Assembly (NCBI RefSeq): GCF_002112505.1
Contig: NZ_NEHW01000005.1
Coordinates: forward strand, 1 to 64,000
Direction: 5' to 3'
Source: Pseudomonas sp. R28(2017)
GTDB lineage: Bacteria; Pseudomonadota; Gammaproteobacteria; Pseudomonadales; Pseudomonadaceae
DNA: 64,000 nt
Shown here one piece after another: positions 20,779 through 26,340 of the stretch. A program made the position numbers and the translations under genes. The notes beneath the pieces were generated by a model that ran no database searches, had not been told where the DNA came from, and saw nothing but the letters and a program-made list of their open reading frames with translations. The first letter of the stretch is position 1. Every line of letters starts with the position of its first letter.

Positions 20779-22839
<2,061 letters not shown>

Positions 22840-22849
22840 TCACGGAATG

Positions 22850-22871
22850 CGGGCACCTCGGCGGGTGCCCG
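22850..22871 (-). promoter_or_regulatory. Leader hairpin upstream of fadH
   Basis: An 8 bp perfect stem (CGGGCACC with GGTGCCCG, 6-base loop) begins 35 bases upstream of the fadH start. It would form in the fadH 5' leader. There is no T-run in the fadH direction, so I read it as a possible mRNA structure, not a terminator. Confidence 0.45.
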
Positions 22872-22903
22872 TCGTTTGTCTGCCTGCGACATTAAACAGC
22901 CGT

Positions 22904-22917
22904 TTGAACGCGTTCAA
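22904..22917. promoter_or_regulatory. Perfect 14 bp palindrome, likely operator between fadH and the nitrilase-like gene
   Basis: TTGAACGCGTTCAA is fully self-complementary and lies in the divergent promoter gap of fadH (minus) and the nitrilase-like gene (plus). Its place and symmetry suit a dimeric repressor. Fatty-acid regulators such as PsrA bind GAAAC-type palindromes, which are similar but not the same, so the binding protein is a guess. Confidence 0.55.
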
Positions 22918-23002
22918 TGATCGAAACTGACAACTTATTGATCCTCCCGTGCAGCGGGACTACCCTAGGGAACCCTCGATTCCCAAGGCGCTGTACCGCT
23001 TG

Positions 23003-24121
23003 ATGCGAAAACTCCTGGCAGGCGCCCTGGCGCTGGTAATGATCACCGCTGCGTGCGGCTATGGCTTCTGGACCCAACAGCGCCCGGAAGGCCACTACCT
23101 CTCCGATCTGCGCATCGAACTGGCGCTCAACCATGGCGTACCCGGCGAGCATGGCAACCTGCTCGGCATCGAACCGCTGCTGTTCCCCAGCGACTACCAG
23201 AACCTGCAACGCCTGCACCGCAAGCTCTCCGCCTACCTGGAGCAGGCACGCGCCCAGGGCCTGGTTGGCCCGCGCACGATCGTGGTGCTGCCCGAGCACA
23301 TCGGCACCTGGCTGTGGGCACGAGGCGAAAAGAACGAGCTGTACCAGGCCACTCGCAACCGTGATGCCGAGCAATGGCTGGAGCTGAGCAACCCGCTGCG
23401 CTATGGCCTGGCAATGCTGAGCGCCAATGGCGATGATCGGCGCGCCGATGCTCACCTGCGCATGAAAGCCCAGCAGATGGCCAGCGATTACCAGCAATTG
23501 TTCGGCGGCCTGGCCAAGGAGTTCGGCGTCACCCTGGTGGCCGGTTCGATCGTGCTGCCCGCCCCGTACGTCGACCAGGGCGTGCTGCACATTGGCCAAG
23601 GGCCGCTGTTCAACAGCAGCCTGGTGTTCGCCGCGGATGGCTCGCCGCTGGGCCAGCCGCAGCACCAGCAATACCCCGACAGCGAGACACGGCGCTACAT
23701 CCACCCTGGGCGGCATTTCCCGTTGCAGGTACTGCAGACCCCCGCCGGGCGCCTGGGCGTGCTGATTGGCAGCGACAGCTGGTACCCCGAGAACCAGCAT
23801 CAGTTGCAGCAACAGCAGGTTCAGCTGATCGCCAACCCGGTGTTCCTCAGTGGCAAAGGCAGCTGGGATGCCCCCTGGCGCGGCAATCGCCACCAGGACG
23901 CCGCTGCCGAGCTGGGCCTGCAACGCGGTGAAGTCAGCGAGCAGACCGCCTGGCAACGCCTGACCCAGGTCGCAGGTGACAGCGTCAGCAGCATGAGCGT
24001 GTTCATGCGTGGGCAGTTCTGGGAACAGGGCAGCGACGGCCAGGGCTTTGCCCATCAGGCCGGTGAGTTGCTGGCGGGCCCTCCCAGCCATGGCGCACGC
24101 CTGCTGAACCTGTGGCTGTAG
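23003..24121 (+). CDS. Membrane-anchored nitrilase-fold protein lacking catalytic residues
   Basis: About 372 aa. The N-terminus (MRKLLAGALALVMITAACG) is a membrane anchor or an unusual lipoprotein signal. The rest follows the carbon-nitrogen hydrolase fold: TIVVLPEHIGTWL holds the usual catalytic Glu, FNSSLVFAADGSPLGQ aligns with the block before the catalytic Lys, and GVLIGSDSWYPEN aligns with the ICYDxxFPE block. The Cys of that last block is Gly and the Lys region reads QPQHQQYPDSE without Lys. Catalysis is therefore unlikely. The ATG at 23003 is chosen because the signal starts there; an ATG at 22949 is in frame. An AraC regulator follows after four bases. Confidence 0.8.
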   Translation: MRKLLAGALALVMITAACGYGFWTQQRPEGHYLSDLRIELALNHGVPGEHGNLLGIEPLLFPSDYQNLQRLHRKLSAYLEQARAQGLVGPRTIVVLPEHIGTWLWARGEKNELYQATRNRDAEQWLELSNPLRYGLAMLSANGDDRRADAHLRMKAQQMASDYQQLFGGLAKEFGVTLVAGSIVLPAPYVDQGVLHIGQGPLFNSSLVFAADGSPLGQPQHQQYPDSETRRYIHPGRHFPLQVLQTPAGRLGVLIGSDSWYPENQHQLQQQQVQLIANPVFLSGKGSWDAPWRGNRHQDAAAELGLQRGEVSEQTAWQRLTQVAGDSVSSMSVFMRGQFWEQGSDGQGFAHQAGELLAGPPSHGARLLNLWL

Positions 24122-24125
24122 GCGC

Positions 24126-25166
24126 ATGAGCCGCCCCCGCGTACGCCTGGGTGACCTTTCGGTCGGGTTCGTCCAACCCCTGGCCGAGGCCCTGCGCGAG
24201 CAAGGCCATGATCCGGTGCCACTCTTGCAGCAATACGGGCTCGATGCCGAGCGCCTGGCCGAAGCCGGCGCACGCCTGTCGATCCCGCGCTACATGCACC
24301 TTGGGCATGCGGCCATCGCGCTGTGTGGCGAGCCGGCGCTGGGCCTGCGCATGGGGCGCCGCAGCCGCCTGGCCCAGGCCGGGTTGGCCGGCGTCACAGC
24401 GGCCCAGGCCCCTACCCTGGGCGAGGCGGCACGCACGCTGCTGCGCTTCGAGCCACTGTACGCTGCCAACTACCGTGGCCAGTCCAGCTACCAGGAAGAC
24501 CCCCAAGGTGCGTGGCTGCGCTTCTATTCGATCAGCCCCTACAACGACTACAACCGCTTTGTGGTCGATTCGCTGCTGGCCGGCTGGCTGGCTCAGCTCG
24601 CCGCCCTGACGGGCGCCCCTTTGCTGGCCGAGCGCCTGGAAGTCGAATTCGATGCACCCGCCTACGCCGCCGGGTATCAATCCCTCTGCAGCACCCCGGT
24701 GCAGTTCGCCGCCAGCGCCAACCGCCTGCGCCTGGGCCGCAGCACGCTGGAGCTGGCCAACCCACAGCACTGCCCGAGCACCTTCGGCCACCTGCTGCAG
24801 TTGTGTGAAGCGGAAATGCACCAGCGCACCCGGGTTCGCAGCCTGGGCGAGCGCATTACCCACCTGCTCGGGCCGTTGCTCAATGGCGGCCGGGAACCCG
24901 ACCTGGAAGAAGTGGCAGTGCACCTGCAACTGCCCACCTGGACACTGCGGCGCAAACTGGCCGAAGAAGGCACGCGCTTTCGCGATTTGCTCAATGACAC
25001 ACGGCGTGACCTTGCCGAAGCCTATATCCGCGATACGGAGCTGGCCTTTGGCGAGATCGCCTACCTATTGGGGTTTGCTTCGGCTGAGGCCTTCCAGCGC
25101 GCATTCAAGCGCTGGACGGGCCTTACGCCGGGGGAGTTTCGCCGCAGCCAGCGGCAGGCAGGTTAA
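24126..25166 (+). CDS. AraC-family transcriptional regulator
   Basis: 346 aa. The N-terminal two-thirds match the arabinose-binding-like effector domain of the OruR/ArgR-type AraC regulators (GLDAERLAEAGARLSIPRY, LGLRMGRRSRLAQAGLAG). The C-terminal AraC DNA-binding domain has two helix-turn-helix motifs (EVAVHLQLPTWTLRRKLAEEG near 260 and FGEIAYLLGFASAEAFQRAF, KRWTGLTPGEFR near 310-335). It starts four bases after the nitrilase-like gene, so the two are probably one transcript and may share a signal. Effector unknown. The stop overlaps the small convergent ORF. Confidence 0.9.
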   Translation: MSRPRVRLGDLSVGFVQPLAEALREQGHDPVPLLQQYGLDAERLAEAGARLSIPRYMHLGHAAIALCGEPALGLRMGRRSRLAQAGLAGVTAAQAPTLGEAARTLLRFEPLYAANYRGQSSYQEDPQGAWLRFYSISPYNDYNRFVVDSLLAGWLAQLAALTGAPLLAERLEVEFDAPAYAAGYQSLCSTPVQFAASANRLRLGRSTLELANPQHCPSTFGHLLQLCEAEMHQRTRVRSLGERITHLLGPLLNGGREPDLEEVAVHLQLPTWTLRRKLAEEGTRFRDLLNDTRRDLAEAYIRDTELAFGEIAYLLGFASAEAFQRAFKRWTGLTPGEFRRSQRQAG

Positions 25167-25249
25167 AGCTCCGTGGCGTCGTCTGCCGGCTCTGGCGGGT
25201 CCAGTTCGTAAGCTTGAAACTCGAGCAGCTCTTCCTGATAGTCATCCAT
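25163..25249 (-). CDS. 28-residue acidic mini-protein
   Basis: A 28-codon frame reading MDDYQEELLEFQAYELDPPE and ending ADDATEL. It is very acidic (12 Asp/Glu, no Lys or Arg). Its ATG is preceded by GAGGAAGCAGGG, giving a plausible ribosome binding site. It overlaps the last four bases of the convergent AraC gene. I have a faint memory of similar short Pseudomonas proteins but cannot check it. Function unknown. A competing frame (ATG near 25288) would give a basic, low-quality peptide, so I prefer this one. Confidence 0.45.
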   Translation of the reverse strand: MDDYQEELLEFQAYELDPPEPADDATEL

Positions 25250-25390
25250 CGCCCTGCTTCCTCTTCTCGTCTGTCTTCGTTGGTCATGCCTTCAACCTAA
25301 GCGGGCTGGGTGAAGGAATGATGACAAGCTTATGAGTGGTAAACGTAGCAGGTGTTCAGGCAATTATCGCCGCCCATCTGTAACAGCGAA

Positions 25391-26215
25391 TTAAAGCGGC
25401 GCCGGCGCCGGCTCTGCAGGCTGCGCATCCTGCTGCACCTGAATGGGTGCAGCCTCCGCTGGCGGCGCCACCGGTTGCGAGCCCTGGCTGTCATCGACCA
25501 CCGGCTTGGCCACAGCTTCACTGGCAGGCGCGACCGCCGCAGGTGCGGGAGCAGCGTCAACCAACGGTGCGGCCGCTGGTGGTGCGACGGCAGGTGCCAC
25601 CGAGGCCTGCTCCGGCAAGCCCAGGTCCGGCGCCAGCTTCTCGGGCTTGGCCACAGGCGCCTCGACCTTGGCCTTGGCGACCTTCTTCGGCTTGGGCAGG
25701 AAACTCTCGACCAGGGCGAAGTAACGGTCGTAGAACTGTGCCGCCGTCACCGTCTCGCTGGCGACCTTGACCATCGAATCGTCGCTGGAGCCGATCGGCA
25801 TGGAGACCGAGCCGAGCACACCGACCCCCAGGCTGGCCGAGCTGTTGGACTTCTTCAGGCTGTAGCGGTCCTGCAACGCGTTGGCGAACATGGTCGAACG
25901 CTTGTCGTCGTTGACGTCTGGCGCACAGGTCACGTTGAAGCTGATCTGCAGGTGGTTTTCGCTGTTCTGCTGGAAGCTCTTGTTGCCCACCACCTGGTTG
26001 GCACCACTGCTGGTGATGATGTAGCCCTGGCTGAGCAACGCACGGCGTGCCGCTTCGCAGGAGCCGGCATCGGTCACCGGGAAGCTGCGCGAGTAGGTCC
26101 CCGAGTCGTCGAAGTTCTCGTGCTCGTAGATGGCGGCTTTCTTCGAAGAGCAACCGGTCACGCCCGCCAGCACCAGGGCCAGCCCGAGCGCACCAAAGAC
26201 GGATGACTTGGTCAT
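25391..26215 (-). CDS. DUF2242 lipoprotein
   Basis: About 274 aa from the ATG at 26215 (GGA seven bases upstream). A lipoprotein signal ends in LAGVTGC with Cys near residue 22. The globular part (AAIYEHENFDDSGTYSRSFP, GSCEAARRALLSQGYIITSS, and a ventral RYSLKKSNSSASLGVGVLGS) matches DUF2242. From about residue 165 the protein becomes a low-complexity Ala/Pro/Val tail, likely a periplasmic spacer. The mature protein probably sits on a membrane facing the periplasm. Function unknown. Confidence 0.85.
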   Translation of the reverse strand: MTKSSVFGALGLALVLAGVTGCSSKKAAIYEHENFDDSGTYSRSFPVTDAGSCEAARRALLSQGYIITSSGANQVVGNKSFQQNSENHLQISFNVTCAPDVNDDKRSTMFANALQDRYSLKKSNSSASLGVGVLGSVSMPIGSSDDSMVKVASETVTAAQFYDRYFALVESFLPKPKKVAKAKVEAPVAKPEKLAPDLGLPEQASVAPAVAPPAAAPLVDAAPAPAAVAPASEAVAKPVVDDSQGSQPVAPPAEAAPIQVQQDAQPAEPAPAPL

Positions 26216-26340
26216 TGCGAATTCCGGGAAAGTCAAAAAGATGCCTATTGTGCATCACTGCAGGCGAGCACTGGAACCGTTGATCGGTGAAGAGTCTGTC
26301 AGGATCGTGTAAATCTGGTCGCCGGCATGGCTCAGAAACG

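Follow-up and report, generated by a model that had tools for sequence, protein, structure and literature searches.

A membrane-tethered nitrilase-fold protein without the catalytic Cys and Lys, and its neighbouring AraC-family regulator as a candidate regulator of fadH in Pseudomonadaceae

The window, by which we mean the whole 64,000-nucleotide stretch of Pseudomonas sp. R28(2017) contig NZ_NEHW01000005.1 that was analysed, carries a pseudo-nitrilase gene, here called nit (23003-24121, forward strand), whose 372-aa product was identified by a Pfam match, a structure model, PDB matches and its orthologues. The ORFs confirm that an AraC-family regulator of 346 aa (24126-25166, forward strand), recognized by its position and by its PF12625 (Arabinose_bd, 141 bits) and HTH_18 (58.7 bits) domains, begins 4 nt past the nit stop, as the preliminary description had stated. 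On the other side of nit lies a divergent fadH-type gene (20779-22815, reverse strand), the predicted AraC target in view of its co-occurrence with the regulator, whose product matches the 2,4-dienoyl-CoA reductase 1ps9 over residues 5-677 with 933 bits; none of the 25 NCBIfam models listed for this product passes its cut-off, so that no equivalog names it. Between fadH and nit is a predicted AraC operator of 41 bp (22913-22953, forward strand), and a terminator-like hairpin (22849-22872, forward strand) stands between fadH and this operator. A DUF2242 protein (188.9 bits) is encoded downstream of AraC in convergent orientation (25391-26236, reverse strand). An Rfam scan of 22500-25600 returned no RNA element at gathering score.

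The nit product scores 42.4 bits against Pfam PF00795 (CN_hydrolase; cut-off 23.2, E 6.7e-11). Its AlphaFold model (mean pLDDT 91.2, pTM 0.87) consists of an N-terminal helix (residues 2-26), a low-confidence joint (residues 27-32) and a compact domain with the alpha-beta-beta-alpha sandwich fold. Foldseek matched the model to a D-carbamoylase at E 7.0e-13, and VIA-align superimposed 240 residues on the H. pylori CN-hydrolase 6mg6_B (Z 24.6, rmsd 2.5 Å). The model thus has a single predicted membrane helix at the N terminus, followed by a nitrilase-fold domain, in keeping with the membrane-anchored nitrilase fold proposed at the outset.

The predicted helix (codons 23006-23080, forward strand) is seen in the model and in the hydropathy of the orthologues. 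We parsed 160 nit loci, one per genome, from about 215 genomes with a nit match; in these, the hydrophobic 19-residue stretch has a median hydropathy of 2.16 and a minimum of 1.33. The charge on the N-terminal flank is +2 in 121 and +1 in 31 of the 160 orthologues, while that on the C-terminal flank is 0 in 81, +1 in 45, -1 in 19 and +2 in 15. These flank charges suggest an N-in orientation that would place the domain in the periplasm. All 27 rows of an alignment have W23 at the membrane boundary, which argues against a cleaved signal. A lipoprotein was also considered and rejected, the TAAC stretch being unconserved among 70 orthologues.

In the translated ORF, the motifs VVLPEHIG, QPQHQQYPDSE and GVLIGSDSWYPE read as originally reported. 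Glu98 (codon 23294-23296, forward strand), presumably the retained triad residue, shows the expected strand-then-PE pattern, and at this position 140 of the 160 orthologues have E, 17 have D, two have A and one has P; because the Glu block lies outside the hhalign match, its assignment rests on this pattern together with the fold match. The genome of the window encodes seven other CN-hydrolases that we found, six of which were aligned as a control and share an invariant Glu, Lys and Cys. In the profile alignment, Gly256 of nit (codon 23768-23770, forward strand) falls on the invariant Cys of these six enzymes. The place of the catalytic Lys is occupied by Gln222 (codon 23666-23668, forward strand) in a register that varies from one alignment to another by one or two positions, and residues 218-231 contain no Lys at all. 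The RK..P of triad-bearing nit orthologues aligns with the RRK..P of solved nitrilases, and a profile of these orthologues matches the Nit6803 nitrilase 3wuy (E 5e-9) in an alignment that runs through RK..P and the Cys block. The reported loss of Cys and Lys is thereby corroborated, with a probable retention of Glu, and catalysis by the window protein appears very unlikely on the strength of its residues.

Whether the two losses are fixed among orthologues had been raised as a question, and they proved to be widespread but not universal: position 256 is Gly in 118 and Cys in 13 of the 160 loci, and position 222 is Lys in 46. Taken together, positions 98, 222 and 256 read EQG, the state of the window, in 72 loci, EKG in 29, EKC in 13 and other combinations in 46, with columns 222 and 256 being poorly aligned in the shortest nit clades. 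The loci with the intact EKC state comprise 10 of the 13 in group g326, two of 13 in group g329 and one of 98 in group g1; the two g329 loci represent two genomes with an identical nit protein. With Gly256 present in 118 loci, a recent local mutation was rejected. On a tree of the AraC protein (100 rows), the Cys column needs four changes and the Lys column eight; this tree came from a quick search, leaves 37 of 97 inner branches open and has no inferred root, so loss and gain are not separable from it alone. Since active relatives carry Cys and Lys, we read these changes as repeated losses, and their most likely direction is away from a Glu-Lys-Cys ancestor whose type of triad persists in some lineages. 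Given that 13 of the 160 orthologues keep Glu-Lys-Cys, the nit family therefore seems to record the decay of an enzyme. Orthologues with the intact triad, which had been named at the outset as refuting evidence in favour of a recent local mutation, do exist, but they point to old and repeated loss across the family instead. One locus from a genome coded g326 (L175, genome G641) has the EQG state, and in the tree its AraC falls among g1 rows close to the clade of the window.

We searched for nit at three taxonomic depths. By row count, 86 of 89 same-genus genomes, the own genome included, match with an E-value no higher than 1e-60, and 132 of 198 family genomes, in 13 of 19 genera, match at E 1e-12. 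In a class-wide sample, the nit profile A1 matched three of 369 genomes at E 1e-10, of which the own genome and one same-family genome carry orthologues, whereas the third match is to a 529-aa frame and is limited to 169-293. The triad-bearing profile A2 matched 60 of the 369 at 1e-8; among the matches listed, those other than the own genome and G304 covered the domain partially, mostly in the Lys-Cys region. Full-length nit orthologues would therefore appear, in these searches, to be confined to Pseudomonadaceae. Two records titled Pantoea sp. and a Paucimonas MAG (L086, L128 and L159) carry nit at 92, 78 and 68% identity and are perhaps misnamed pseudomonads.

In 153 of the 160 loci, the AraC start is at most 30 nt from the stop codon of nit, with a 4-nt overlap in 68 of the 153. 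A second set, comprising the best 80 of 565 confirmed relatives (77 titled Pseudomonas), has AraC next to nit in 80 of 80, although it overlaps the 160 and is not independent of them. The seven exceptions are a frame-broken nit beside an AraC gene (L063, genome G080) and six loci without AraC, so the answer to the question whether AraC is always adjacent is nearly, but not strictly, yes. Three of the six AraC-less loci (L207, L235 and L236) share, as judged by eye, a conserved divergent gene upstream of nit whose product has about 425-460 aa.

A different picture emerged when presence was scored by genome. Of the 198 family genomes, 176 carry AraC (E 1e-85), 178 carry fadH (E 1e-280) and 132 carry nit. 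AraC and fadH are both present in 176 genomes and both absent from 20; fadH occurs alone in two (G543, which is 87% complete, and G575), and AraC never does. These counts are not independent, as the 20 genomes without both fall in five genera, and two AraC-negative genomes (G591 and G599) were assigned by elimination. By contrast, nit and AraC are both present in 126 genomes and both absent from 16, with nit alone in six and AraC alone in 50. Twelve of these 50 nit-lacking AraC loci were inspected; the nit profile found nothing in any of them, and fadH is a neighbour in 10. In three same-genus genomes (L250-L252), AraC and fadH are direct neighbours with no nit between them. The co-occurrence counts and the nit-lacking loci therefore identify fadH as the steady companion of AraC.

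The intergenic region between fadH and nit, or between fadH and AraC where nit is missing, contains a strongly conserved stretch, from whose footprint a matrix was built for the predicted operator (CTCAATGAyCnAAAnTGACAAsTTAtTGATC...). We tried 170 loci, of which 146 have fadH within 600 bp and 24 do not. The operator was found in 146 of the 146 (136 nit-bearing and 10 nit-lacking) with scores of 16.0 to 68.0, although the matrix used here had been trained on these very loci. With a matrix from the 136 nit-bearing loci, the 10 nit-lacking loci score 4.8 to 52.9, the lowest being four loci of group g322 (4.8-15.8), and shuffled sequence scores -24 or less. The window operator scores 49.8, and the next best site on both strands of the 64 kb scores -19.3. 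One strict 30-base pattern, allowing up to three mismatches, has a single place in this genome, and its reversed control has none. Across the 146 sites, the operator matches itself at 0.61 with an offset of 21 bp, compared to 0.16-0.32 at other offsets from 15 to 25. In AraC-type operators, such as araI, the direct repeats are spaced by roughly two turns of the helix, as is the case for the 21-bp direct repeat.

All 136 nit-bearing loci with a nearby fadH have the operator ahead of nit, and none of the 24 others does. In eight loci where fadH stands apart from nit-AraC, the operator lies 75-122 bp from fadH in each, and no second site above -17 was detected in the stretch with nit. Likewise, nothing above -31 was detected in the 500 bp before nit in six AraC-less loci, and nothing above -11 before nit in 10 loci whose examined stretch lacks fadH. 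From its presence and absence across the 146 and 24 loci, we conclude that the operator belongs to fadH rather than to nit. Two AraC-bearing loci with neither nit nor a nearby fadH (L260 and L261) have no operator in the examined stretch. In genome G630 (L219 and L274), fadH is about 174 kb away from nit-AraC; the operator accompanies fadH and is missing ahead of nit, which means that AraC must be transcribed from a different promoter in this genome. In the window, a scan of 22750-23100 detected no consensus sigma-70 promoter beside the operator.

These results bear on the idea that nit and AraC form a sensor-regulator unit, in which a dead nitrilase domain would bind a periplasmic ligand and signal to AraC, either directly or by controlling inducer entry. 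Its sensor or binding-protein part is compatible with the near-constant adjacency of the two genes and with the shared loss of Cys and Lys in most orthologues that nonetheless keep Glu98. The dedicated pairing fares less well: the genes separate both ways, in six and 50 of 198 genomes, the operator is retained in nit-lacking lineages, and both operator and AraC follow fadH. Moreover, AraC carries a ligand-type domain of its own (PF12625). We take this separability as evidence against a dedicated unit and consider the sensor-regulator explanation as a whole to be unlikely.

Loss in nit extends beyond single residues. Several clades have nit proteins of 306-342 aa in which the profile match stops between positions 226 and 293, and none of 16 such shortened proteins matches Pfam CN_hydrolase at E 0.1. 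The model of one of them (L197, 310 aa; pLDDT 78.2) nevertheless resembles the fold, with Z 11.8 and rmsd 4.2 over 202 residues of 6ftq. A single bacterial family thus contains nit proteins with the complete triad, others that lack one or two of its residues and still others from which the catalytic half is gone altogether. Pairwise identity averages 0.59 over residues 34-200 versus 0.35 over 201-372 (3000 sampled pairs). The 146 triad-less sequences have 47 positions conserved at 97% or more, 44 of which precede residue 214; P97, G101 and T102 are each found in 160 of 160 orthologues and E109 in 159, so that all four are better kept than Glu98. Median dN/dS values in six groups, from pairs with dS of 0.1-1.5 only and with one group represented by the first 25 of its list, are 0.15-0.30 for the N-terminal half and 0.27-0.36 for the C-terminal half. 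The AraC-less group g333 has values of 0.25-0.35, and triad-bearing g326 is no more constrained than the triad-less groups. With medians of 0.15-0.36 in every group, the nit protein is therefore under purifying selection.

Purifying selection in triad-less groups, along with the frequency of Glu98, might be taken to mean that nit is still catalytic through other residues or a partner and that the family was never dead. Ser257 was considered as a nucleophile and rejected, as the position after Gly256 varies (S in 74, W in 19, A in 18, C in 15, G in 13 and T in 11 of 160, with others in the remainder) and holds no conserved nucleophile. In addition, 120 of the 160 orthologues have no Cys beyond residue 30, and some clades have no recognizable Cys/Lys region, which makes surviving catalysis highly improbable in our estimation. 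The notion that the nit ORF is kept mainly as a leader or passenger cistron coupling translation to AraC, with a protein that matters little, accords with the close coupling and the shortened C-terminal halves, but we give it equally small credence given dN/dS well below 1 in all groups tested, including the AraC-less one, the 47 highly conserved positions and the three same-genus genomes in which AraC stands without nit.

The explanation that we prefer, and to which we would assign an even chance, is that AraC controls fadH through the 21-bp-repeat operator, and that the probably dead, membrane-tethered nit protein is a rider, likely a non-catalytic binding protein that serves unsaturated-acyl metabolism from the periplasm. 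Co-occurrence and site conservation suggest the regulation of fadH by AraC through the predicted operator. As an optional passenger between fadH and AraC, nit would share the operon of AraC by position and appears to have been lost from there in some lineages. Its ancestor was presumably an enzyme with the Glu-Lys-Cys triad, of which the window protein is probably a catalytically dead descendant. The latter retains the first half of the fold, with the Glu98 loop, G101-T102...E109-K110, the MA.DYQ.LF helix and the AGSI.LP.P strand. Since nit persists without AraC in g333 under selection, an independent function of the protein is probable; its probable position in the envelope, together with the proximity of fadH, leads us to favour, as a guess, a role in binding acyl or amide compounds. 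The ligand would most likely be such a compound with a link to unsaturated fatty acids, in whose breakdown FadH takes part; both ligand and step are guesses. Several points weigh against this explanation. The coupling of nit to AraC, with its frequent 4-nt overlap, is tighter than a mere rider needs, and loss of the triad residues is compatible with other chemistry, with g326 showing no stronger constraint. The interdependence of the co-occurrence counts, the training of the matrix on its own loci, the low scores of the g322 loci, the missing operator at L260 and L261 and the lack of a consensus sigma-70 promoter and of a naming equivalog for the fadH product also count against it.

A further reading, which we offer as rather speculative, is that the nit family is midway in a shift from a membrane-bound amide-handling enzyme to a non-catalytic envelope protein, whose retained half might bind an acyl or amide compound that contributes to the supply of inducer for the regulator of fadH and so act as a sensor or delivery factor.

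Regardless of its exact role, the nit family offers a natural series in close relatives, from intact triad through residue-dead to half-lost, that should be useful for asking what the nitrilase fold does without chemistry. Our findings also propose a candidate target, an operator and a likely physiology for a little-studied AraC regulator that is widespread in pseudomonads, including its likely P. aeruginosa orthologue PA3094. They further serve as a caution, in that adjacency alone would have paired AraC with the wrong gene.

PA3094 of P. aeruginosa is the likely counterpart of this AraC, with PA3093 and PA3092 assigned to its neighbours by synteny in the gene order PA3092-PA3095. The literature collection searched contained no paper that names PA3093 and none that combines the nitrilase superfamily with pseudoenzymes, although other published work may exist. 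In a recent study (eLife 2026, PMC13086498), EMSA showed binding of PA3094 to predicted sites, and lecA was found to be under its positive control; the main text searched mentions neither 'fadH' nor 'PA3092'. As PA3094 activates lecA in P. aeruginosa, fadH is not established as the only target of AraC. The gene order at a g329 locus is fadH, a 310-aa nit, AraC and T2SSM (XcpZ-like), as expected for xcpZ of P. aeruginosa; its nit is an eroded form, unlike the 372-aa protein of the window.

The solved folds nearest to nit are 6mg6, 8pt4 (beta-ureidopropionase), 5h8i (N-carbamoylputrescine amidase) and 3wuy, with Z of 21.3 to 24.6. Apolipoprotein N-acyltransferase (Lnt) has several membrane helices, an intact triad and a nitrilase-fold domain at the inner membrane. 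Like Lnt, nit has a nitrilase-fold domain attached to the membrane, but it differs in having one predicted helix and no triad. With the nitrilase superfamily (PF00795) at large, nit has in common the whole fold, probably the Glu block, and the outline of the Cys block, while the window protein differs from the superfamily enzymes in lacking Cys and Lys and in bearing a single N-terminal membrane helix.
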